A model generated the notes under the pieces. It did no database searches, was not told where the DNA came from, and saw only the letters and a list, made by a program, of their open reading frames with translations. A stretch of 64,000 nucleotides of DNA from the NCBI RefSeq assembly GCF_030908215.1, contig NZ_JAVFJK010000009.1, forward strand, positions 55,616 through 119,615, read 5' to 3'. This DNA comes from Sinomonas sp. ASV486. Lineage in GTDB: Bacteria > Actinomycetota > Actinomycetes > Actinomycetales > Micrococcaceae. Shown piece by piece: positions 35,330 through 49,297 of this stretch (the stretch's first letter is position 1; every line of letters starts with the position of its first letter). The translations under genes were made by a program, and so were the position numbers.

Positions 35330-36007
35330 TCAGTCGGAGAGCCGCCGCCCGATCACGCTCTCCTTGAACCCCTCCAGGAGCTCTCGCGGCGCGGGAAAGA
35401 CCTCGACGGCCCCGGCATCACGGAGCTCCGCCTCACTGTAGCCGCCGGACGCCAGCCCCACAGTCGGAATGTCCAGGGCGGCAGCGGCCTGGACGTCCCA
35501 CACCGCGTCGCCCACGAACAGCACCTCGGACGCCTCGAGTCCGCCGGCCTCGAGGGCCGCGATGAGGATGTCGGGCGCCGGCTTGGACTCCTCCGCGTCC
35601 GCGGAGCTGGTCGCAGCATCGATGAGACCGTCGGCGCCGATCACCGAGCGCAGCACCTCGAGGTCCTGCTGCCGGGCCGAGGACGCCAGCACCACCGTGA
35701 GCTCCTGTGCCTTGCAGCGCTCGAGGAGTCCCCGCGCGCCGTCGAACGGGCGCAGATGCGGCCAGAACGTTGAGAACACTGCACCGTGCGTGTCCAGGAT
35801 CTGGGTGTCCTGGGACGAGTCCCGGCCGGGGCCAAGGAGACGTTCGACGATCTTCTGCCCGCCCATCCCGACCAGCCTGTGGATCTCGTTCATCCGCACG
35901 TCGTGCCCCAAGCGGCGGAAGCCATACCACCACGCGAGCGTGTGGAAGTAGGTCGAGTCGACGAGCGTGCCGTCCACGTCGAACAAGACTCCCCGAAGCC
36001 GCGTCAT
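35330..36007 (-). CDS. HAD family hydrolase (phosphatase)
   Basis: A 225-residue haloacid dehalogenase-type phosphatase. Motif I is FDVDGTLVDS, with a cap domain, motif II is around VVLASSARQQD, motif III includes the Lys of EESKPAPDI, and motif IV is VLFVGDAVWDV. The subgroup is phosphoglycolate- or beta-phosphoglucomutase-like; the substrate is unknown. A second, broken copy lies about 4 kb away on the same strand beyond the dipZ block. The gap of 74 bases to dipZ carries no obvious signal. Confidence 0.92.
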   Translation of the reverse strand: MTRLRGVLFDVDGTLVDSTYFHTLAWWYGFRRLGHDVRMNEIHRLVGMGGQKIVERLLGPGRDSSQDTQILDTHGAVFSTFWPHLRPFDGARGLLERCKAQELTVVLASSARQQDLEVLRSVIGADGLIDAATSSADAEESKPAPDILIAALEAGGLEASEVLFVGDAVWDVQAAAALDIPTVGLASGGYSEAELRDAGAVEVFPAPRELLEGFKESVIGRRLSD

Positions 36008-36081
36008 CTACACCGCACCCGTTCACTGGTCATGGAACGCTGCTACCCCGGACACCACTGCCTCAATCCAAGTCCCGGCGC

Positions 36082-38016
36082 TTACCCGAACGTGAAGGAG
36101 TAGAGCTCGACGCCGGCACTCGCCGTGACCTCGATGGTCCCCTCGCGCTGGGCCTGGCTGTCGTAGAGGACGTAGGAGCGAGGTGTGCCGCCGACCCCGA
36201 CGGTCCGTTCGCCGTCCGGACCCTTCAGCGTGAGCGTCCCCGTCCCGCTGGCCACCGCCTGGACCTGCCGCGCATGGAAATTCAGCCGCACGGCCGGCGA
36301 GGCCGCAGCGCCGGGAGAGGCGCCGCCGTCGTTCGCGGAACCAGCGGTGATCTTCTGTGAGTCGAGGGTCCACGCGCCGGAGAGGGCAAACGAGTCCGCG
36401 GGCTGGCTGGCAGGGAAGGAGAACGTGCCCGGCCCGGAGCGGTACTGCCCCGTGCCCGCGTAGTTCACCTGCTTCGCAATGCCCAGGAACGTCTCCGGGG
36501 TGGTGCTGCCGGCCGCCGGCGCGGTGTCCTTGCCCTCGACCGGAGCAGGCAGGGCCACGCCCGGATGCGCCGCGGACAGCAACTGCCGCACGAGGTTCTC
36601 GGTGTTCTGGTAGCCGCCTTCGCCCTGCTGGATGTGGCGGACGTTGCCGTCGGAGTCGATGAGGTATTGGGCCGGCCAGAAACGGTTCCGGTAGGCGGAC
36701 CAGGTCGAGTACGCGTTGTCCATGGCCACGGGGTAGTCGATGCCGTGCTCCTTCACGCCGGCCTCGACGTTGCGCTGCTCGCGCTCGAACGCGTACTCCG
36801 GGGTGTGGACGCCGATCACCTCGAGCCCCGCCGCCTTGTAGGCGTCGTTGAGCTGGACGATGTGGGGGAGCGAGCGCTGGCAGTTGATGCACGAATAGGC
36901 CCAGAAGTCGATCAGCACCACCTTTCCGTGCAGCCCGGCGAGGGTTAGCGGATCGGAGCCGATCCACGCCGTCTCCCCGCGGATCGCGGGCGCTGGCCCG
37001 CAGTCCTGCAGCTCGGCGGAGCCTTGGGTGCAGTTCGCGAGGCCGCGGTTCTCATCGGTGGGCGCCCCGCCGAGGTCCAGGGGCGTGCCTGGTGCGGGAC
37101 GGAGCTGGTCCTGGAAGGACGCGGTGTAGTCGGGGATGAGCCGCTGGACGGCGGCGGGGAGGTCGAGGGCGAGGCCCGCCGCGAGGGCGATCATGAGCGC
37201 GCCGGCCGTGATGCGGATGCCCCGCTGGCGGCGCCGGAACGACTTGAGCCGCTCGGCAAGCCCGCGGCCGGCGAGTGCGAAGAAGAGGAGTGGTACCGAG
37301 ACGCCGATCGCGAAGGCGAGCGTGAGCCCGACCGTCTCCGGCCCGATCCGACCCGTCGCGCCCGAGACGGTGATCGCCGCGAGGACCGGCCCGGCGCACG
37401 GCACGAACACGGCACCCAGGGCGAGGCCCAGGCCGAAGCCGCCGCGGCGCGCGTCGACCTGCTTCTGCGGAATCCAGGAGAACGGCTTCTCGAGCCATTC
37501 TTCGACGCGGGGCACCATGAGCCCGAGCCCCACCGCCGCGAGCACCGCGATGCCTGTCCAGCGCAGCACGTCCTGGGGGAGCCCGAGGGTCGAGAGCAGC
37601 AGCGAGCCGAGGAGTGTGACCGCGCTGAAGCTCAGCACGAGCCCTGCGATCACCTGATAGGGCCGCCACCGCGACGCCGCCCGCCCCGGCTGTGCCGCCT
37701 GTGCGCCGAGGTCACCCCGTGGGACGCCGAGGTCACCCCGTGTGGCGCCGAGGTCACCCCGCGTGCGCTCGAGGTCACCCTGTGTGGCGCCGAGGTCACC
37801 CCGCGTGCGCTCGAGGTCACCCTGTGTGGCGCCGACGTCACCGCGTGTGGCACCGAGGTCACCCCGTGCGGCCACCGAAACCGGGGCGGACGACGGCGCC
37901 GCTCGGCGCGCGCTGTCGAGCCCGCCCGAGAAGAAGATCACCGGTAGAACCGGCAGGATGCAGGGCGAGATGCCCGTGATGAGACCGCCCAGCAGCCCGA
38001 TGAGTATGACGTCCAT
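36082..38016 (-). CDS. dipZ: DipZ: CcdA-type membrane protein fused to thioredoxin-like domain
   Basis: A 644-residue membrane redox protein. The N-terminal CcdA/DsbD part has two conserved cysteines in ISPCILPVLPVIFF and AVFVPCAGPVLAAITV and about six helices. The C-terminal extracytoplasmic part holds a TlpA/thioredoxin fold with the CxxC in DFWAYSCINCQRSLPHI, and a further beta-rich domain to the end. It moves electrons from cytoplasmic thioredoxin to the cell-surface side to maintain or repair disulfides. Between the first and second helices (about 47-102) lies a tandem repeat of GDLGATR-like heptads. The ATG is 7 bases after an ECF-type -10 box, implying a leaderless mRNA. In Mycobacterium tuberculosis dipZ belongs to the SigK regulon; the sigma/anti-sigma genes here are 4 kb away. 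Confidence 0.94.
   Translation of the reverse strand: MDVILIGLLGGLITGISPCILPVLPVIFFSGGLDSARRAAPSSAPVSVAARGDLGATRGDVGATQGDLERTRGDLGATQGDLERTRGDLGATRGDLGVPRGDLGAQAAQPGRAASRWRPYQVIAGLVLSFSAVTLLGSLLLSTLGLPQDVLRWTGIAVLAAVGLGLMVPRVEEWLEKPFSWIPQKQVDARRGGFGLGLALGAVFVPCAGPVLAAITVSGATGRIGPETVGLTLAFAIGVSVPLLFFALAGRGLAERLKSFRRRQRGIRITAGALMIALAAGLALDLPAAVQRLIPDYTASFQDQLRPAPGTPLDLGGAPTDENRGLANCTQGSAELQDCGPAPAIRGETAWIGSDPLTLAGLHGKVVLIDFWAYSCINCQRSLPHIVQLNDAYKAAGLEVIGVHTPEYAFEREQRNVEAGVKEHGIDYPVAMDNAYSTWSAYRNRFWPAQYLIDSDGNVRHIQQGEGGYQNTENLVRQLLSAAHPGVALPAPVEGKDTAPAAGSTTPETFLGIAKQVNYAGTGQYRSGPGTFSFPASQPADSFALSGAWTLDSQKITAGSANDGGASPGAAASPAVRLNFHARQVQAVASGTGTLTLKGPDGERTVGVGGTPRSYVLYDSQAQREGTIEVTASAGVELYSFTFG
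37708..37875. repeat. Eight 21-bp tandem repeats inside dipZ
   Basis: Eight units of 21 bases, each starting GAGGTCACC (one GACGTCACC) on the top strand. On the coding strand they read as heptapeptides GDLGATR, GDVGATQ, GDLERTR and variants. The unit length keeps the frame, so copy-number change would lengthen or shorten a loop of the membrane protein without breaking it. Confidence 0.9.
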
Positions 38017-38023
38017 GCCGAAG

Positions 38024-38052
38024 GTTCGCAGCCGGCGGGAAGCCCGGATTGG
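38024..38052 (-). promoter_or_regulatory. ECF-type promoter of dipZ
   Basis: On the minus strand CCAATCCG (38052-38045), a 15-bp spacer, then GCGAAC (38029-38024). The ATG follows after 7 bases. It matches the motif before three other units of this block. Confidence 0.7.
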
Positions 38053-38122
38053 GGCGCCCAGAGGGCAACGCCCGGAACGAGGCACCTGCAGGGAGTCGCG
38101 CCCCGCCGTGCCTACAGCCACG

Positions 38123-38151
38123 GCAATCCGCACCAGCATCCTGCTCCGAAG
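38123..38151 (+). promoter_or_regulatory. ECF-type promoter, upstream copy
   Basis: GCAATCCG (38123-38130), a 15-bp spacer, CCGAAG (38146-38151). It is the first of two tandem copies, 32 bp apart, reading toward the secreted-protein gene. Confidence 0.6.
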
Positions 38152-38154
38152 AGC

Positions 38155-38183
38155 CCAATCCGCACCCATGTGCCGCTCCGAAC
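38155..38183 (+). promoter_or_regulatory. ECF-type promoter, downstream copy
   Basis: CCAATCCG (38155-38162), a 15-bp spacer, CCGAAC (38178-38183). With the preceding copy and the dipZ site on the other strand, this 244-base divergent region carries three instances of the motif. Confidence 0.7.
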
Positions 38184-38260
38184 AGGAGTCGTCCAATCCC
38201 CGCAGCGGCCGAGAGGGCTGGACGGCTGGTCGGCGGCCGCTCATCTCAAGGAAGTGCATC

Positions 38261-38908
38261 ATGAGTTCACTCATTCGCATGGCACGGCCGGCCCTTCGGG
38301 TCTGGGCTGCTGTGCTTGCGGGGCTCGCCCTCGCCTTCGGCGGTGTGGCGGCGGCGGCCTTCGCCTCCGGATCCACCGTCCTGCCGGTCTCGAGCGCTAG
38401 GACACCGGCCTGGACCAACGGGCAGACCGTGACGGTCCAGTACGCCCAGAATTTCTTCTGCGACACGAGCGTCCCCGCCTCCGCGCCGTCCGGGTGTGAG
38501 GTGGGCACTGCCGCGAACACCGGACCGGTCGCCAACGCGGACCGCTCGGTCCTGTACGTGCTCGTGCCGCTCTTCGCGAACCCGAGTCCGGCGGCGATGT
38601 GCGCCGTCGCGAGCTGCCCCAACCACCCGCTCGACATCGACCTGTCCCGGATTGCCGGGGCCCTTGGCGCGTCTCCGGGAGCCGTGGCCTCGGTGCCGCT
38701 TCCAGCGCACAGCCACATCCTTGACGGCCCTGCCGGAGGCTGGTGGCAGATCAAGGTTGTCGCGGTGACCAACCAGGCGGCCTGGGCCCAGCTCGCGGCC
38801 GGCAAGTCGGAGACCACGATGAACGCATTGATCGCCACTCCGGGCAGCGGCGTGATTGGCCCAGTGCCCACCAACCTGTACCTGTTCTTCAACGTTGTGG
38901 GGAAGTGA
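38261..38908 (+). CDS. Secreted hypothetical protein
   Basis: A 215-residue protein with a signal peptide (RPALRVWAAVLAGLALAFGGVAAAAFASG) and a mature domain without recognised family. It contains four Cys (FFCDTSV, SGCEVG, MCAVASCPN) that could form disulfides, fitting a neighbour of the disulfide-handling dipZ, and a C-terminal beta-rich part ending TNLYLFFNVVGK. AAGGAA lies upstream of the ATG. Two tandem ECF-type promoters precede it. Probably exported and surface-associated; function unknown. Confidence 0.8.
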   Translation: MSSLIRMARPALRVWAAVLAGLALAFGGVAAAAFASGSTVLPVSSARTPAWTNGQTVTVQYAQNFFCDTSVPASAPSGCEVGTAANTGPVANADRSVLYVLVPLFANPSPAAMCAVASCPNHPLDIDLSRIAGALGASPGAVASVPLPAHSHILDGPAGGWWQIKVVAVTNQAAWAQLAAGKSETTMNALIATPGSGVIGPVPTNLYLFFNVVGK

Positions 38909-38913
38909 GGAGG

Positions 38914-39933
38914 GTGGCCTCCCACAGCTTCCTCTCGGTAGCCCGGGTGCGCCGGCTGGCGCACCCGGGCCTCCGGGCGGGCGGCCCGCTGCCGACGACG
39001 ATGGCGCTCGCCGCACTCGTCGCGGCAGTGGCGGGCCTGCTGCTGCCCTGGGTGACCGTATTCCACGGATTCGCGCCCTTGAACGGCATCGCGGCCGGTG
39101 GTGGCACCTACGCCGGGCTGGCCACGGCGTCCGCCCTCCTGCTCCTTGCCGCCCACCGCTACGCGTGGGCTCCGGGCCGCTGGATCGCACTGGGTGCTGC
39201 GTCGGCCGCGGTGGCAGGCTCTCTGTGGATCGCGCGGTCCGTGGCTGACTACGCTTCGGATCCGGGCCCTGCGGCGGCGCTGGCCTCGCCCGTCCCGGGG
39301 CCCGGCCCCTGGGTGCTCGCGGCGGGCGCGGCCCTCGTCGTGGTGGCAGTCTTCCTGCCGCTTCCACAGAACTCCCGCGGCGCGGGACTTGACCGCGCGG
39401 GACTCAACGGCGCGGGACTCGCCGGAAAAGGGAGAGCAGGCCTCGGCGCGAGGCTCGGACTCGGGGCGACGGCCTTCGTGGCCGGCTGGATCCATCTGCT
39501 CCTCGTGCCCGAGCACTGGGGAGAGTCTGCGCTGCTTGGCGCAGGCTTCCTCGGCGCAGCGATCCTGCAGCTCGCCCTCGCGATCTCGGTCGTGGAGCGC
39601 CCTGGCCATGCCGCGCACCTCACGCTCGTGGTGCTCAACGTCGCGCTCGTCGGCGTGTGGCTCTATGCGGTGTTCGTGGGGCTTCCGCTCGGAGACGCCC
39701 ACGACCACGGTGGCGCGGCTGGGTGGTCGATCGGAGCGGGAGAGCCGATCGACACAGGCGCAGTCGTGACCAAGGTGGCCGAGATAGCCGGTGCAGTATG
39801 GGCCGGCGTGCTGATCAGCCGTCCCGTCCGGCGGCCGCATGGCGCGGGACAGCAAGTGCAACGCGCCCGCCACAGGTTTGGCGGCGCGGCAGGGCTTCGG
39901 ATCGGAGCCGGATCACGGGGTGGGGCGGCCTAG
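38914..39933 (+). CDS. Hypothetical multi-pass membrane protein
   Basis: A 339-residue protein with about seven membrane helices (for example MALAALVAAVAGLLLPWVTVF, TYAGLATASALLLLAA, LGATAFVAGWIHLLLVPEHW, LVVLNVALVGVWLYAVFVGL). A cytoplasmic or outer loop near residues 150-170 carries a 15-bp DNA repeat giving AGLDR, AGLNG, AGLAG. The loop GDAHDHGG and EHWGES contain possible metal-binding His. No family is recognised. The start is uncertain: GTG here, or the ATG at 39001 which begins the first helix. It follows the secreted-protein gene by 5 bases and so shares its promoters. Confidence 0.7.
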   Translation: MASHSFLSVARVRRLAHPGLRAGGPLPTTMALAALVAAVAGLLLPWVTVFHGFAPLNGIAAGGGTYAGLATASALLLLAAHRYAWAPGRWIALGAASAAVAGSLWIARSVADYASDPGPAAALASPVPGPGPWVLAAGAALVVVAVFLPLPQNSRGAGLDRAGLNGAGLAGKGRAGLGARLGLGATAFVAGWIHLLLVPEHWGESALLGAGFLGAAILQLALAISVVERPGHAAHLTLVVLNVALVGVWLYAVFVGLPLGDAHDHGGAAGWSIGAGEPIDTGAVVTKVAEIAGAVWAGVLISRPVRRPHGAGQQVQRARHRFGGAAGLRIGAGSRGGAA

Positions 39934-39948
39934 CCGGTCCCGAGCTGC

Positions 39949-40476
39949 CTACCGATGAGGCACGTCCCACACGGCGTCGCCGACGAACAAGGCCTCCGAG
40001 GCTTCCAGGCCCGTGGCCTTGAGCGCCACCACGAGGATGTCCGGTGCGGGCTTGGGCTCCTCCGCGTCCGCGGAGCTCGTGGCGGTGTCCACGAACGCGT
40101 CGGCATCGATGACCGAGCGCAGCGCGCTCAGGTCCTGTTCCCGTGCCCAAGAGGCCAGGACCACGCTGAGGCCCGCGTCCTCGTACCGCGCGAGAAGGTC
40201 GCGCGCGCCGTCGAACGGCCGCAGGTGCGGCCAGAACGTCTAGAACACCGCGGCGTGGGTGTCGAGGATCTCGCTGTCCTGGGCCGTGTCCCGCTCCGCA
40301 CCTAGCAGGTGCTCGACGATCTTCTGCCCACCCATTCCGACACGCCGGCGGATCTCGTTCATCCGCACGTCGTGTCCGAAGCGGCGGAACGCGTACCACC
40401 ACGCGAGGGTATGGAAGTACGTGGAGTCGACGAGCGTCCCATCCACGTCGAAAAGGATTCCGCGCAATGGTGACAC
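39949..40476 (-). pseudogene. Broken second copy of the HAD phosphatase gene
   Basis: The encoded protein follows the intact HAD gene at 35330-36007 closely: 63 of the first 78 residues are identical. The frame is interrupted by a TAG (40240-40242) where the intact copy has a Ser codon (VFSTFWPHL), then continues in the same frame through VVLASW, EEPKPAPDI and ALFVGDAVWDV and stops, missing the last 55 residues including part of the fold. One nonsense codon plus a truncated 3' end make this a pseudogene. The two copies bracket the dipZ block in direct orientation. Confidence 0.88.
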
Positions 40477-40543
40477 GGGCTGCCTTCCGGTCTCGGGTGC
40501 GCCCAGCCTAAGTCAGCCTCCCAGGTCCGGCTAGCCTGAGGGG

Positions 40544-41269
40544 ATGGGGTGGCACATTGGAACGTCGGGCTGGAGCTACGACCACTGGGCGGATGCCCCG
40601 TACCCGCCGGGAACGCGTCCGGGGGACCGCCTCGGGATCTACACGAGCCGCTTCTCCACGGTGGAGCTCAACGCGAGCTTCTACCGGTGGCCGCGCACGA
40701 CGGCGTTCGCGAGCTGGCGTCGTCGGCTCCCCGAGGGCTTCCTCATGTCGGTCAAGGCCCCCCGCGGGCTCACCCACGCCAAGCGGCTCTACGCCCCGGA
40801 GGCCTGGTCGGAGCGCATTGCGGAGTCGTGGCACGAGCTCGGTCCGCGCCGCGGCGTGCTCCTCGTCCAGCTCTCGCCGAACCACGCCCGCGACGACGCC
40901 CGCCTCGACTGGTTCCTCGGCGCCCTGCCGCAATGGATCCAGGTTGCCGTCGAGCTCCGCCACCCGACCTGGCACGACGCGGCGGTCTTCGACATCCTCC
41001 GGCGCCACGGCGCGGCCTACTGCATCATGAGCGGCGCCAACCTCCCGTGCATCCTGGAGGCGACCGCCCAGACCGTCTACGTCCGCCTGCACGGGCCAGA
41101 CCACGACAACCTGTACGGCGGCTCCTACTCGGACGCGGACCTCGGCTGGTGGGCCGAGCGCATCCGCGAATGGGATCGGTCCGGCCACGAGGTCTACGTC
41201 TACTTCAACAATGACGGCGAAGGCAACGCCGTGCGCAACGCCCTCACGCTGCGTGGGATGTTGGGCTGA
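40544..41269 (+). CDS. DUF72 domain protein (YecE-like)
   Basis: A 241-residue TIM-barrel-like protein of the DUF72 family: [55 protein letters not shown] and [17 protein letters not shown] are all hallmark segments. Biochemical function is not established; some relatives are linked to nucleic-acid or cofactor chemistry. TAGCCT lies 6 bases before the ATG, so the mRNA is probably leaderless. It separates the HAD remnant from the fasciclin gene. Confidence 0.93.
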
Positions 41270-41318
41270 GGTTTCGACTCCGCTCAACCATCGGGTTTGG
41301 ACTGCGCCCGACAACCAT

Positions 41319-41346
41319 CCAATCCGTCCCCGCGACTGCTCCGAAG
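41319..41346 (+). promoter_or_regulatory. ECF-type promoter of the fasciclin gene
   Basis: CCAATCCG (41319-41326), a 14-bp spacer, CCGAAG (41341-41346), about 40 bases before the ATG. Confidence 0.75.
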
Positions 41347-41384
41347 AACCGGTGCAAGCCACCCGTGAAACAAGGAGTGAAGCC

Positions 41385-42053
41385 ATGAAGATCATCCAGC
41401 GCACGTCGGCCGTCGTGGGCCTCGCGGCCCTCAGCGCCCTCGGCCTCGCCGCGTGTGGCGGGTCGACGTCGGCAGCCGGCCCCGCGTCGTCGTCCGCGCC
41501 CTCCAGCAGCTCGGCGAAGGCCGCGAGCCCGTCGGCGATGTCCACGAAGGACCCGGCAGCGAACCTCGTCGGCGCCGGCTGCGCCGACTACGCCAAGGCC
41601 GTCCCGACCGGACCCGGCTCGGTTCAGGGGATGAGCACGGATCCCGTGGCGGTCGCGGCGTCCAACAATCCGCTCCTCAAGACGCTCGTCTCGGCGGTCT
41701 CCGGCAAGCTCAACCCGAAGGTCAACCTCGTGGACACGCTCAACTCGAGCCAGTTCACGGTGTTTGCCCCGGTGGACAGCGCGTTCGCGAAGATCGATCC
41801 GGCGACCATCGAGTCCCTCAAGACCGATGACAAGACGCTGTCCACGATTCTCACGTACCACGTGGTTCCGGGCCAGATCGAGCCTGCCTCGATTGCCGGG
41901 ACGCACAAGACGGTCGAGGGCCAGGACGTCACCGTCACCGGCTCCGGCAACAGCCTCAAGGTCAACGGCGCCAACGTGATCTGCGGCGGTGTCCAGACGG
42001 CGAACGCGACCGTCTACCTCGTGGACACGGTGCTGATGCCCCCGGCCAAGTAG
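41385..42053 (+). CDS. Fasciclin (FAS1) domain lipoprotein
   Basis: A 222-residue lipoprotein. The signal peptide ends in LAAC, a lipobox with Cys about 25 where lipid is attached; a Ser/Ala linker follows. The FAS1 domain occupies about 85-220 ([86 protein letters not shown]). Two Cys (AGCADY, VICGGV) may form a disulfide. It is the counterpart of mycobacterial MPT83/MPT70, which are controlled by SigK. AAGGAG precedes the ATG. An ECF-type promoter lies upstream and a long hairpin terminator downstream; the sigma factor gene comes next. Confidence 0.94.
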
Positions 42054-42077
42054 GCGGGCGCGCAGCGCACTAGAGCG

Positions 42078-42120
42078 CACGACGGCGGGCCGGGCGCTGG
42101 GGCCCCGGCCCGCCGTCGTG
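42078..42120. terminator. Long hairpin after the fasciclin gene
   Basis: CACGACGGCGGGCCGGG (42078-42094) is perfectly inverted at 42104-42120 around a 9-base loop. There is no T tract, as usual for actinobacterial terminators. Its arm contains the GCACGACGGCGG element seen elsewhere in the window. Confidence 0.75.
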
Positions 42121-42158
42121 TATCCCCCAGGTCAAACAGGTCACAGTGGCGGAGGACA

Positions 42159-42764
42159 GTGAGCAGCCGTGAGACAGTGGTCTACATGCCCGACTACGAC
42201 GGCGGGGCGACCCCTGCCCCGGACCTCGACGAGCTCATGGACCGCATTGCGAGCGGTGACCAGGAGGCGTTCGGGCATCTCTACGACGTGCTCGCGCCAC
42301 TGGTTCATGGCCTCGTCCTGCGGGTGCTCCGGGATCCGGCCCAGTCCGAGGAGGTCACCCAGGAGGTGTTCCTCGAGGTGTGGCAGCAGGCCAAGAGGTT
42401 CGACGCGGACCGGGGCCGCGCACGGGCCTGGATCACCGTCATGGCGCACCGCCGGGCGGTGGACAGAGTCCGCGCAGCCCAAGCCTCTACGGACCGCGAC
42501 CTCCGCGAGGGGATCAAGGACTACCAGGAGAGCTACAACGACGTTGAGCACCGCGTCGAGGTTGCCCTCGAGAGCGAGCGGGTCAACAAGGCCCTCGAGT
42601 CCCTCACCGAGGTTCAGAAGCAGGCCATCCGCCTTGCCTACTACGGCGGCTACACCTACGGGGAAGTCGCCACCGCCCTGGGGCTTCCCCTGGGCACCGT
42701 GAAGACCAGAATCCGCGACGGGATGATCCGCCTCAGAGACGTGTTGGGAGTGAGCCATGGATGA
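42159..42764 (+). CDS. sigK: ECF sigma factor, SigK-like
   Basis: A 201-residue ECF sigma factor. Region 2 spans about 25-95 (FGHLYDVLAPLVHGLVLRVLRDPAQSEEVTQEVFLEVWQQAKRFD, GRARAWITVMAHRRAVDRVR) and region 4 about 130-190 (LESLTEVQKQAIRLAYYGGYTYGEVATALGLPLGTVKTRIRDGM). This is the SigK/SigL-type group. GGAGG lies before the GTG. The last 8 bases overlap the anti-sigma gene, a classic coupling. Dedicated targets are probably dipZ, the secreted protein, fasciclin and DUF4383 genes, all of which share a promoter motif; no such motif is seen before sigK itself. Confidence 0.92.
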   Translation: MSSRETVVYMPDYDGGATPAPDLDELMDRIASGDQEAFGHLYDVLAPLVHGLVLRVLRDPAQSEEVTQEVFLEVWQQAKRFDADRGRARAWITVMAHRRAVDRVRAAQASTDRDLREGIKDYQESYNDVEHRVEVALESERVNKALESLTEVQKQAIRLAYYGGYTYGEVATALGLPLGTVKTRIRDGMIRLRDVLGVSHG

Positions 42765-43620
42765 TCAGCTGCACCTGCTGACCGGTGCCTACGCCCTCAA
42801 CGCGCTCGACGACGAGGAGCGGCGCCGCTTCGAGCGCACCCTCACGTTCGGCGACCCCGTTGCCGAGGAGGCCCGCGAGCTGGCGGAGACGGCTGCGCTC
42901 CTCGCTGCTGACGCGTCTCCGGTAGCCCCGCCTCCGGACCTCAAGGCCCGGCTCATGGCCCAGATCGCCGTGACCCCTCAGCTCGAGATCGCCGACGCGG
43001 GGTCACGTCCGAGCGATGCGGGGTCACGTCCCGGGGATGCGGGGTCACCTCTCAAGGAAACCGAGCCCCAACCCGAAGCGACGGTTGCAGACCTCGGCGC
43101 GCGCCGCCGTCGTGCGCAAGGCGGCGGTGCCGTGTTCACGGCCCCCGCCAGGTGGCTCGCGGCGGCCGCTGCGGTGCTTCTGGTTGCCGCGGGCGCGGCC
43201 GGCGTGTGGGGCTTCCGGGCCCAGCAGCAGCGCGACGACGCCGTGCGGCAGCTCGCAGCCGCCGCAGATGCGCCAGGCAGCGTCATGAACCGGATCCTCA
43301 GCGCGCCCGATGCGACGATCCAGGAGGCCAGCGTTCCCGGAGGCGGAACGGTGGTGATCGCGCATTCGCACCGGGAATCGGTGGCCGGGGTCGTGACCAT
43401 CGGCATGCCGGTTCCGGCGGCTGGTCACGTCTACGAGCTCTGGCTCGGCGACGCGTCCGGGACCATGAAGCCTGCGGGCCTCGTGGCCGGCGAGGGCACC
43501 ACCTGGAACGAGCTTGCGGGTGGGATCGGCTCCGCGACGGTCCTTGGCGTGACGGTCGAGCCGGCGGGGGGATCGGCGCGGCCGACTACCACGCCGATCC
43601 TCGTCCAACAGTTCTCCTGA
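42757..43620 (+). CDS. rskA: Anti-sigma K factor RskA-like
   Basis: A 287-residue membrane anti-sigma factor. The N-terminal cytoplasmic domain begins LLTGAYALNALDDEERRRFERTL, the usual sigma-binding start of RskA proteins. A single membrane helix lies at about 128-150 (WLAAAAAVLLVAAGAAGVWGF) and the extracytoplasmic RskA domain follows (VPGGGTVVIAHSHRESVAGVVTIGMPVPAAGHVYELWLGD). A 21-bp repeat encodes DAGSRPS heptads in the linker before the helix. It would hold the sigma factor inactive until an outside signal triggers proteolysis. It overlaps sigK by 8 bases. Confidence 0.93.
   Translation: MDDQLHLLTGAYALNALDDEERRRFERTLTFGDPVAEEARELAETAALLAADASPVAPPPDLKARLMAQIAVTPQLEIADAGSRPSDAGSRPGDAGSPLKETEPQPEATVADLGARRRRAQGGGAVFTAPARWLAAAAAVLLVAAGAAGVWGFRAQQQRDDAVRQLAAAADAPGSVMNRILSAPDATIQEASVPGGGTVVIAHSHRESVAGVVTIGMPVPAAGHVYELWLGDASGTMKPAGLVAGEGTTWNELAGGIGSATVLGVTVEPAGGSARPTTTPILVQQFS
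42994..43056. repeat. Three 21-bp tandem repeats inside rskA
   Basis: Three units of 21 bases (GATGCGGGGTCACGTCC-type) coding for DAGSRPS, DAGSRPG and DAGSPLK. Unit length and the internal GGGTCAC resemble the dipZ array. Confidence 0.85.
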
Positions 43621-43635
43621 GGAATCCGGGCTGGC

Positions 43636-43663
43636 CCAATCCGCCTGTTCGGCGGCTCCGAAG
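43636..43663 (+). promoter_or_regulatory. ECF-type promoter of the DUF4383 gene
   Basis: CCAATCCG (43636-43643), a 14-bp spacer identical in length to the fasciclin promoter, CCGAAG (43658-43663), about 60 bases before the ATG. Confidence 0.75.
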
Positions 43664-43726
43664 AGTAGGTGCGGGCATACCGCACCGGCTCCCCGGAAGG
43701 GCGCCGGATCACCGTTAGGAGAAGCT

Positions 43727-44188
43727 ATGTCCACCTCAGTCCTCTCGCACCGCCGCACCGCCGTCCAGCTCGCCGCGAGCGCGGTCGGTGTCGTGTTCCT
43801 GCTTGTCGGCGTCCTCGGATTCATCCCCGGGATCACCACGGGCTCCGGCATCGGATTCGCCGGGCATGCCTCGGACGCGTACCTCCTGGGTCTCTTCCAG
43901 GTCTCAGTGCTGCACAACGTGGTCCATTTGCTGTTCGGCATCGCCGGTCTCGCACTCGGCGCCTCGGCCGGCGGGGCGAAGCAGTTCCTCGTCTGGGGCG
44001 GCGCGATCTACCTGGTCCTGTTCGTCTACGGACTCGTGTTCGGTGGTGCCTCCGCGGGCAACTTCGTCCCGCTCAACGCCGCCGACAACGTCCTCCACGT
44101 ACTCCTCGGCGTCGGCATGCTGGGCCTTGGGCTCATCCTCGGGCGCACGACGGCGACCTCCCGCGCCGCGCGTCCGGCCCACCACTGA
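43727..44188 (+). CDS. DUF4383 membrane protein
   Basis: A 153-residue protein with four membrane helices (AASAVGVVFLLVGVLGFIPGI, SVLHNVVHLLFGIAGLALG, FLVWGGAIYLVLFVYGLVFG, NVLHVLLGVGMLGLGLILG). The paired HNVVHLLFGIAGL and DNVLHVLLGVGML segments with conserved His are the DUF4383 signature. Function unknown. It has its own ECF-type promoter, separate from sigK-rskA, so it is a probable member of that regulon. TTAGGAG lies upstream of the ATG. Confidence 0.9.
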   Translation: MSTSVLSHRRTAVQLAASAVGVVFLLVGVLGFIPGITTGSGIGFAGHASDAYLLGLFQVSVLHNVVHLLFGIAGLALGASAGGAKQFLVWGGAIYLVLFVYGLVFGGASAGNFVPLNAADNVLHVLLGVGMLGLGLILGRTTATSRAARPAHH

Positions 44189-44206
44189 CGCGGCTCACCG
44201 CCCAAT

Positions 44207-44229
44207 GGTGGGGAGTGCTCCTCCCCACC
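44207..44229. terminator. Hairpin after DUF4383 gene
   Basis: GGTGGGGAG (44207-44215) pairs with CTCCCCACC (44221-44229) over a 5-base loop, 19 bases after the stop codon. Confidence 0.65.
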
Positions 44230-44677
44230 GAGGGTCAGCAGCTGGGGGCCATCTTCCGAGGACCATCTCGTGAGGGCGGCCCCCAGATGGCCTCCAGAGG
44301 ACGGTTCAGAGCACTCCTCCCCATCATTTGCTGCACTCCTCCCCAGCTTTCCCGCCTTCCTCCAGCCGCGGGGCGTACGACGCCGCGTGGTTGCGGGAGT
44401 TCCCACGATCGCCGATGGCGGGCGGGACTCGAAAGCTGGGGAGGAGCGCGCAAGTCCAGGGGAGGAGCGCTCAAGTGCTGGGGAGGAGAGCGCAAGTCCT
44501 GGGGAGGCGAAATGCGGCAGGGAAGGACCGACCCCAGGACACGACTCAAGCTCGGCGGCCACGGCATGACCCCGCGCGGCACACGAGAGAGGTGCCGGCA
44601 TGGGGGCGGTGCCGGTGCCGGTCTGGAGGGCGGTGCCCGTCTGGAGGAGGGGTGGCGGCCTGGAGAGCGGTGCCAGC
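44230..44677. other. 450-bp repeat-rich intergenic region
   Basis: No convincing gene. The stretch is built from short repeats: CTCCTCCCCAGCTTTC (44336-44351) is perfectly inverted at 44431-44446, a 21-bp tandem array follows at 44431-44510, and an imperfect 18-bp array with GGCGGTGCC-x-GTCTGGAG units runs over about 44605-44690 toward the trpF stop. The inverted arms could fold into a long stem 80 bases apart. Open frames across it read only the repeats. Confidence 0.7.
44431..44510. repeat. Four 21-bp intergenic tandem repeats
   Basis: Units beginning CTGGGGAGGAG (second copy CAGGGGAGGAG) start at 44436, 44457, 44478 and 44499, an exact 21-base period, separated by GCGCAAGT-type filler. 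The same GGGGAGGAG word appears inverted twice just upstream. Confidence 0.85.
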
Positions 44678-47562: not shown

Positions 47563-48831
47563 ATGCCGGGCCCCGGGACCAGACCTGTGCTCCAGCCTGC
47601 GCCAGGGCCCGTGATCCGGCTCGTGGTCCCTGAGGGCCTCGGGTACACGTCGGGCGGCACGGTCTACAACACGCACGTCGCGGACGCGCTCCGCGGCCTC
47701 GGGGTGACGGTCGAGGTTGTAGGCGTCCCGGGGGCGTGGCCCGTCGGCACCGACGCCGACCGCCGCCGGCTCCGCGTCGCGCTCGACCTACCGGATGCGG
47801 CGGTGCTCGACGTCGCGGACGCCGCGGCGCTCGACGTGGCGTCCGCCGCAGCCCTGCACACTCACGGGGGCGCAACTGCCCGCAACAGCGCGATGGCCCC
47901 CGCATCCGGGGCGGCCCCGCCTGCGGCCCGGCGGGCCGTGCTCGTCGATGGGCTCCTCGCGCTCGGGGCCCCCGACGAGGTGTACGCGGCGGCCCAGGCT
48001 GCTGCGAGTAGCGGGGCGGCCCTCGGGATCCTGGTCCACATGTCCCTCGCCGACGCGCCCGGTCTGTCCGCAGAGGAGGCCGCACGGTCGGCGGCCCTCG
48101 AGCGCGAAGCCCTCGCCGCGGCGCGCACCGTCCTGGTCCCCAGCGACTTCGCTGCACGGCGTCTCGCCGAGCGTTACGGCACGTCCGCGCGGGTGGCGAG
48201 GCCCGGCGTCGTGCGGGTGCCAGCCGCCCCGGGGAGCCTTGCCGAAGGCCGAGCGCCGCACCTGCTGTGCCTCGCGGCGCTCCTGCCCGGGAAGGGGCAG
48301 CTGCGGTTGGTGCGCGCGCTCGGCGAGCTGCGGGAGATGCCGTGGACGTTGACGCTCGCGGGTCACGACGCCGCGGACCCGGGCTACGCGCACGCCGTCG
48401 CCGTGGAGGCTGCACGGCTCGGGATCGCGGACCGCGTCCTGATCCCGGGCGAGCTGCGCGGGCCCGCGCTCGAGACCGAGTGGTCGCGGACGGACCTCAC
48501 GGTGCTCGCTTCTGTCTCGGAGACGTTCGGGCTCGCCGTCGCGGAATCGCTCGCGCGCGGGGTGCCGGCACTGGTGGGCGCAGGAACGGGCGCGGCCGAG
48601 GCGCTCGGCCTCTCGCTCGCGGGGGGCCTCGGACCGGCCGGAACGGTCGTAGGGACTCCCGGGCGCGGAACCGATCCCCTCACCGCCGAGCTCGGACGAT
48701 GGCTCGCGGATCCTACCGTGCGTGCCAGATGGCGGGCCGCGGCCCGCGCGGCGAGGCCCCTCCTGCCGGGCTGGGAGTCGACGGCGCTGGGCGTTGCCCG
48801 CGCGCTCGGCGTGGGCGCCCTGCAGCCCTGA
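47563..48831 (+). CDS. Glycosyltransferase family 4
   Basis: A 422-residue GT-B fold enzyme. The C-terminal donor domain is clear: LLCLAALLPGKGQLRLVRALGEL, LTLAGHDAADPGYA, IPGELRGPALETEWSRTDLTVLASVSETFGLAVAESLARGVPAL with the conserved E-x7-E type segment. The N-terminal domain opens IRLVVPEGLGYTSGGTVYNTHVADAL. The acceptor is unknown; its neighbours suggest a small soluble product. The ATG follows the PTPS-like stop by one base. Its last 119 bases overlap the end of a convergent membrane-protein gene. Confidence 0.9.
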   Translation: MPGPGTRPVLQPAPGPVIRLVVPEGLGYTSGGTVYNTHVADALRGLGVTVEVVGVPGAWPVGTDADRRRLRVALDLPDAAVLDVADAAALDVASAAALHTHGGATARNSAMAPASGAAPPAARRAVLVDGLLALGAPDEVYAAAQAAASSGAALGILVHMSLADAPGLSAEEAARSAALEREALAAARTVLVPSDFAARRLAERYGTSARVARPGVVRVPAAPGSLAEGRAPHLLCLAALLPGKGQLRLVRALGELREMPWTLTLAGHDAADPGYAHAVAVEAARLGIADRVLIPGELRGPALETEWSRTDLTVLASVSETFGLAVAESLARGVPALVGAGTGAAEALGLSLAGGLGPAGTVVGTPGRGTDPLTAELGRWLADPTVRARWRAAARAARPLLPGWESTALGVARALGVGALQP

Positions 48832-49252
48832 GAGCCGCCAAGGTCGCGACGGCCGTGACGAGGGCTGCGGCGACGTGCACCACCACGAGCAGGTGCAGGT
48901 CGACTGGCGCTGACACCGAGGAACCCACCTCAGGCCCCGCGGCCGCTCCGTGAACATGCCCCGAGGGGTGGAAGAGCGGCGCGTTCGCGCCCGCGAGGGC
49001 AGTGAACGCCAGATGGAGCGCCTGCTGGACGAGCCCGCTGGACACGCCGAGGACCCAAGGGGCGAGCGGTACCCGCGCCGCCGCAGCGGCTAGCAGGCTC
49101 ACCGAGGCCGCAAGGGCCACGACCACCACGGCTGGGGGACTCGCGCCGCCCGAGACGAGATGGGCGGCCAACCCCAGGCCTACCGCCAGCGGACCCGCGA
49201 CGGCCGCAGCGAACGCTGACCTGCGCCGTGCAAGGACTGATACTGTCTCCAC
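48713..49252 (-). CDS. Hypothetical membrane protein
   Basis: A 179-residue protein with four probable membrane helices (FAAAVAGPLAVGLGLAAHLVSG, AVVVVALAASVSLLAAAAARV, VLGVSSGLVQQALHLAFTAL, VDLHLLVVVHVAAALVTAVATLAAL). Loop residues HPSGHVHG and the in-membrane His are notable. No family is recognised. The C-terminal 40 residues are Arg/Pro-rich and lie on DNA that also encodes the end of the glycosyltransferase on the other strand, so either the tail is dispensable or this is true overlapping convergent coding. GTG start. Confidence 0.65.
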   Translation of the reverse strand: METVSVLARRRSAFAAAVAGPLAVGLGLAAHLVSGGASPPAVVVVALAASVSLLAAAAARVPLAPWVLGVSSGLVQQALHLAFTALAGANAPLFHPSGHVHGAAAGPEVGSSVSAPVDLHLLVVVHVAAALVTAVATLAALRAAGRPRRARGQRPAPSTPSPAGGASPRGPRPAIWHAR

Positions 49253-49297
49253 ACCTGCAGTTCGGAGCGGTCGGCCCGGCGGATGGGCCCGGAGCGA

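Follow-up and report, generated by a model that had tools for sequence, protein, structure and literature searches.

The sigK locus and its promoter motif

A 64,000-nt window of the genome of Sinomonas sp. ASV486 (contig NZ_JAVFJK010000009.1), a soil actinobacterium related to Arthrobacter, carries genes for an extracytoplasmic function (ECF) sigma factor, an anti-sigma factor and several further proteins that lie behind copies of one promoter-like motif. To judge from sequence comparison, this arrangement is very probably a SigK/RskA regulon. The sigma factor gene, sigK (42159..42764, + strand), encodes a protein without a single cysteine, which passes the NCBIfam SigK model NF007228 (267 bits against a cut-off of 226) and matches PDB 4NQW (E 7.9e-48). 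It overlaps by 8 nt with rskA (42757..43620, +), encoding a membrane anti-sigma factor with an RskA_C domain (E 8.3e-26) that also matches NF052375 (144 bits, above the cut-off of 100). The RskA_N domain scored under its cut-off (23.4 versus 27 bits); by eye, the N-terminus HLLTGAYALNALDDEERRRFERTL and the first helices resemble the AS19-1 consensus quoted in PMC7406223. These matches bear out an earlier note on this DNA, which had called the sigma factor SigK-like. Directly upstream lies FAS (41385..42053, +), encoding a fasciclin-domain protein with a lipobox-like N-terminus, a homologue of MPT70/MPT83 that matches the MPT70 structure 1NYO (E 4.5e-67). Downstream of rskA is a gene for a DUF4383 membrane protein (43727..44188, +), the sole PF14325 match in this genome.

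A pattern search of the window with CAATCCG-N13..16-CGAA recovered all five motif copies at the positions and on the strands given in the earlier note; when the window was shuffled 100 times with its dinucleotides preserved, the pattern occurred on average 0.08 times and never more than once in any shuffle. The spacer from CCAATCCG to CCGAA is 14-15 nt, as the note had stated. We also trained a matrix with two boxes on 61 sites from loci outside the genus Sinomonas (L078-L113), and used it to scan the window and the relatives' loci, the whole genome being searched by pattern. Positions that the training pattern did not force are conserved too in these related genomes, namely a T before CC (50/61) and a G eight from the end (59/61). 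The five copies comprise the predicted SigK-type promoters of the DUF4383 gene (43637..43662, +; matrix score 29.9), of FAS and, by putative read-through, of sigK-rskA (41320..41345, +; 29.5), and of dipZ (38025..38051, -; 21.9), the last with GCGAA and the end GGCTGCGAA, together with two tandem sites before SEC, a proximal promoter copy (38156..38182, +; 29.0) and a distal copy in which a G precedes CAATCCG (38124..38150, +; 24.8). This tandem arrangement reflects a duplication, with two 30-nt copies that are 77% alike and lie 32 nt apart; in S. notoginsengisoli the proximal copy is conserved and the distal one absent. The matrix revealed a sixth SigK-type site, a CCATCCG variant before the gene LMP (49261..49286, -; 22.1), absent from the earlier note, whose finding is right and somewhat less rich than the locus itself. 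The mycobacterial -35 box is often CCATCC. The next score in the window after these six is 10.7, and 1.28 Mb of Markov sequence yielded two scores of at least 14, the highest 17.1.

The host genome (4.28 Mb, 19 contigs) holds ten matches to the loose pattern. Five are the window sites, and three of the remaining five share one identical 25-mer. A tighter pattern, CAATCCR-N14..15-SCGAA, gave eight matches, and its reversed control gave none. These eight are the five window sites, window position 36064, C18:178142 and C14:195268, the last on another contig. This last match is taken as the seventh site and lies 79 nt upstream of a gene for a CHRD-like protein, whose Pfam match is under the cut-off (18.1 versus 24.1 bits). 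Six of the seven predicted sites fall within ~11 kb. Contrary to the earlier proposal, the regulon is not wholly gathered in one place: the sixth site lies ~5 kb beyond the DUF4383 gene, and the seventh on the other contig.

The remaining motif-bearing genes of the window are dipZ, SEC and LMP, and domain and structure matches agree with the gene identities that the note had assigned behind its sites. dipZ (36082..38016, -) encodes a 644-aa protein with DsbD_TM membrane, thioredoxin-like and C-terminal Thioredoxin_10 domains, of which residues 312-644 match the solved DipZ ectodomain, PDB 2HYX, and also 5CYY. The SEC product (38261..38908, +; 215 aa) is presumably exported, having a hydrophobic N-terminus. 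It had been described as Cys-containing, and four cysteines and an H-x-H are in fact invariant across 24 aligned sequences. SEC is followed by MEM (39001..39933, +; start codon uncertain, 38905 to 39001), which encodes a membrane protein with a His-containing loop. Neither SEC nor MEM matched a Pfam or NCBIfam family above cut-off. LMP (48713..49252, -) encodes a small membrane protein, also with a His-containing loop, from a GTG start at 49252. Short repeats occur in and near several of these genes: a repeat like GAGGTCACCCCGTGTGGCGCC at ~37690-37880 codes for consecutive RGDLGAT-like units close to the DipZ N-terminus, a related repeat, GATGCGGGGTCACGTCC, lies within rskA (43000-43050), and many copies of TGGGGAGGAG / CTCCTCCCCA are found downstream of the DUF4383 gene (44210-44560).

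Association of the motif with SigK and turnover of its targets

The comparative evidence supports a tie between the motif and SigK. In relatives' loci a site was called at a matrix score of at least 14, a threshold reached by 12 sites in the 1.49-Mb null for the 80 loci together. In 39 of 40 Micrococcaceae sigK loci a site lies no more than 1.6 kb upstream of sigK, and 74 of the 77 sites in these loci precede FAS (28), MOX (19), the DUF4383 gene (16), sigK (6), dipZ (3), SEC (1) or a CHRD-like gene (1). Most of the family loci had supplied training sites; the set drawn from the wider class was unused in training and is the fair test. There, 34 of 40 loci have a site, which in 28 is no more than 1.6 kb upstream of sigK; the 52 sites comprise 44 assigned ones (sigK 18, FAS 14, MOX 10 and rskA 2) and 8 unassigned.

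The motif and the sigma factor also occur together at the level of whole genomes. Among 120 family genomes, the strict motif is present in 42 of the 45 with a SigK orthologue versus 10 of the 75 without (107 versus 14 sites; Fisher 3.6e-19), an orthologue being a match of at least 183 bits, a cut-off chosen after both searches. At the search's own cut-off of 1e-30 the counts are 49/88 versus 3/32 (p = 2.8e-6). Kinship among the genomes inflates both p-values. The motif thus appears to serve as a marker of the SigK regulon, as the earlier note had proposed.

The genes behind the motif vary. Of the four other Sinomonas loci retrieved, three have a DUF4383 gene after rskA, as do some sister genera; elsewhere the gene in this place encodes a membrane protein of ~517-573 aa, also behind the motif. 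The membrane protein of locus L085, when scanned, carried the Oxidored_molyb domain PF00174 (molybdopterin oxidoreductase, hence MOX). In relatives MOX stands before FAS or after rskA, and the order MOX-FAS-sigK-rskA or MOX-FAS-sigK is seen in 13 of 40 class loci. The grouping of dipZ with sigK recurs in another Sinomonas genome, G104 (L076), and in two genomes of genus g19 (L078 and L079), but not in G135, where the two genes are ~15 kb apart, nor in G084, where they are on different contigs; in both of these latter genomes dipZ has its own site. In three g19 genomes (L218, L219 and L200) a conserved SigK-type site was noticed immediately ahead of a gene of unknown family with 163-191 codons.

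SEC is rare: its own genome included, it was found in 2 of 149 genomes of the family and 3 of 394 of the class. Orthologues with 72-79% identity are present in Terrabacter, Humibacillus, two Microbacterium, Galbitalea and metagenome-assembled genomes (MAGs) labelled Frigoribacterium and Chloroflexi, and weaker homologues reach Nocardioides, Actinoplanes and Acidobacteria MAGs. A MEM homologue follows SEC in all eight close orthologues found. When 300-nt upstream stretches were scored for 23 SEC homologues (the starts of the distant ones being approximate, and L251, a fragment at a contig start, being set aside), 11 scored higher than any of 1380 null stretches, whose maximum was 15.3, another two passed the 99% level of 6.4 with 14.1 and 9.0, and 10 fell below it. 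Judged by these scores, SEC appears to be a SigK-type target far outside Sinomonas too. A HAD-family gene (35330-36007) flanks this part of the window on one side, and on the other is a second copy (~39962-40455, -) that is 80% identical over 498 nt and has an in-frame stop. Since HAD directly adjoins DUF72 in L074, L077 and L229, dipZ-SEC-MEM looks to have been inserted between the two HAD copies here. All that S. notoginsengisoli appears to retain of dipZ next to SEC is a 3' remnant (L230 7681-7794; L144 1178-1489, -).

Predicted read-through into sigK and leaderless transcripts

A strong hairpin of 45 nt lies between FAS and sigK (42077..42121, +), with 20 pairs and one bulge, and is a candidate attenuator. 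An uninterrupted stem of at least nine pairs is found in 27 of 33 related FAS-sigK gaps, although the sequences are unlike between genera. As the hairpin has no U-tract, its role may be that of a terminator, partial or full, or of an RNA stabiliser. We favour a model in which transcription from the FAS promoter reads partly through it into sigK-rskA, so that SigK would enhance its own synthesis. Where family loci have no FAS match (six cases), the site immediately precedes sigK, which argues that the FAS promoter feeds sigK too. The strongest competing explanation, which we nevertheless consider rather doubtful, is that a separate housekeeping promoter drives sigK-rskA and that the hairpin is a full terminator, leaving no feedback. 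The length of the stem in Sinomonas and the recurrence of stems in related gaps are what such a terminator would predict, but the lack of a U-tract and the placement of the site in the FAS-less loci speak against it, as does the failure to find a sigma-70-like promoter in 41300-44300 in a scan for this one promoter type.

Two of the predicted targets share one geometry. The 49261-49286 site sits 8 nt upstream of the LMP GTG, and four of the six other Sinomonas genomes (G121, G084, G006 and G037) also have LMP, its ATG again 8 nt from a site. Likewise, the dipZ ATG lies 8 nt after CGAA, so that a leaderless transcript is likely. Across the dipZ and LMP sites displayed together, the start codon is exactly 8 nt past CGAA in 13 of 14 (8 dipZ and 5 LMP). 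Leaderless transcripts that begin at the start codon would fit this constant distance for both genes. The other targets have leaders, of 39 nt for FAS, 64 nt for the DUF4383 gene and 78 nt for SEC. The constant spacing makes the transcript starts predictable to the base.

Several observations weigh against a single SigK regulon of the extent and wiring described here. The whole-genome scan proposed in the earlier note did not turn up many random matches inside genes, but two of the eight strict matches have no evident target: C18:178142 and window position 36064, which is antisense to the 3' end of dipZ. A second strict pattern also gives C12:193215, again without an evident target, and genus g19 has some extra sites inside long open frames. 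Among relatives, family locus L113 lacks a site upstream of sigK (its single match is elsewhere), 6 of 40 class loci have no site at all, three genomes with a SigK orthologue lack a strict site and ten without an orthologue carry one. No site lies between FAS and sigK in the window, so that autoregulation rests on read-through past a strong hairpin, and a stem of nine pairs is missing from 6 of 33 related gaps. Finally, LMP and its site were not found in G104 and G135, two of the seven Sinomonas genomes searched, the L112 site near dipZ has no start codon at 8 nt, and the dipZ starts of L155 and L174 lie outside the 8-nt comparison.

SigK without switch cysteines and the predicted role of the regulon

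The Cys133-Cys183 disulfide of SigK matters for control by RskA and is conserved in 94% of ECF18 and 56% of ECF19 proteins, according to PMC7509140. In the Sinomonas protein these positions are Ala and Val. None of the 40 family loci encodes a SigK with either cysteine; in the 40 class loci, 22 have both, none has one and 18 have none. The longest frame after sigK is at least 200 aa in 38 of 40 family loci, the exceptions being one cut by a contig end and one of 166 aa. The same source reports an abnormal RskA in 23% of cysteine-less versus 2% of cysteine-bearing loci. Given the missing SigK cysteines and the long frame after sigK, the Micrococcaceae by sequence belong to the larger part of the cysteine-less group, which keeps a long RskA. 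They share with Nocardia the absence of both disulfide cysteines, but the Nocardia RskA is truncated to 81 aa (PMC7509140), whereas the Sinomonas RskA keeps its C-terminal domain.

Comparison with known systems separates what is familiar from what is apparently new. PMC7509140 and PMC9861118 already describe the cassette with its site, sites at mpt83 and dipZ, and cysteine-less SigK. The former reports high conservation of SigK sites across Actinobacteria and their presence upstream of mpt83, attributes the mpt83-sigK-rskA cassette, found also in Yersinia, to Veyrier and co-workers, and states that the signal activating SigK is unknown. The latter describes SigK-dependent promoters for each of mpt83, dipZ and mpt70 in Mycobacterium, and an induction by light of the fasciclin genes, though not of dipZ, in M. 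kansasii. In the portion of PMC4821874 consulted, no motif is given. The Sinomonas locus shares with the mycobacterial regulon the SigK and RskA homologues, an MPT70/83-type fasciclin, a DipZ ectodomain match and one common motif; it differs in that FAS adjoins sigK, in its targets (DUF4383, SEC-MEM, LMP and CHRD-like) and in a SigK without Cys133 and Cys183. With the cassette described in PMC7509140 it shares the order FAS-sigK-rskA and a SigK-type site upstream of FAS, but here further motif-bearing genes flank the cassette, and relatives have MOX. The DUF4383, SEC-MEM, LMP and CHRD-like targets, MOX in relatives and the leaderless 8-nt geometry are apparently new. Our literature search, whose scope stopped short of a 2008 paper on regulon evolution, found no paper that places DUF4383, SEC, MEM, LMP, CHRD-like or MOX in a SigK regulon.

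These observations suggest a model for the Sinomonas system. RskA would hold SigK at the membrane until an extracytoplasmic signal causes RskA to let it go. SigK-RNA polymerase would then read (T)CCAATCCG, a spacer of N14-15 and the downstream box with which GCTCCGAA ends. There are seven such predicted sites, which would serve dipZ, SEC-MEM (two in tandem), FAS, the DUF4383 gene, LMP and the CHRD-like gene on the other contig. Read-through from the FAS promoter past the hairpin into sigK-rskA would provide positive feedback at a lower dose, and dipZ and LMP would be translated from leaderless transcripts.

Because every product appears from its sequence to be exported or membrane-bound and DipZ is a thiol-disulfide protein, the likeliest job of the regulon may be thiol/redox upkeep of envelope proteins, an assignment we make tentatively and at somewhat less than even confidence. 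A response to copper or other metal stress is an unlikely substitute: the invariant cysteines and H-x-H of SEC and the His-containing loops of LMP and MEM could suit metal binding, but none of these three proteins matched a metal-handling family, and DipZ and the molybdopterin oxidoreductase of relatives are redox proteins. It is very unlikely that another ECF sigma factor of this genome reads the motif, with sigK a mere neighbour, because the 20 loose candidates returned by a first SigK search of this genome and the strict sites in 10 of 75 genomes without an orthologue are set against the site upstream of sigK in 39/40 family and 28/40 class loci, the strict motif in 42/45 genomes with an orthologue, and the conservation reported in PMC7509140.

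Returning to the SigK regulon and its proposed part in redox upkeep, we can speculate further, with a good deal less confidence, that in the Micrococcales it serves the repair of envelope proteins in general. The ancestral core would consist of a membrane molybdopterin oxidoreductase of the sulfite-oxidase family and a fasciclin protein, to which lineages would add or swap DipZ, DUF4383, CHRD-like, LMP and a SEC-MEM pair that spreads horizontally together with its own SigK promoter. Since SigK lacks the switch cysteines whereas its anti-sigma factor is full length, sensing of the signal would fall to the exported part of RskA instead of a SigK thiol. With its clustered sites, no switch cysteines and a full-length RskA, Sinomonas would be a convenient organism in which to search for the SigK signal, and the co-targets DipZ and SEC, together with the molybdoenzyme of relatives, narrow the guess towards extracytoplasmic redox damage.

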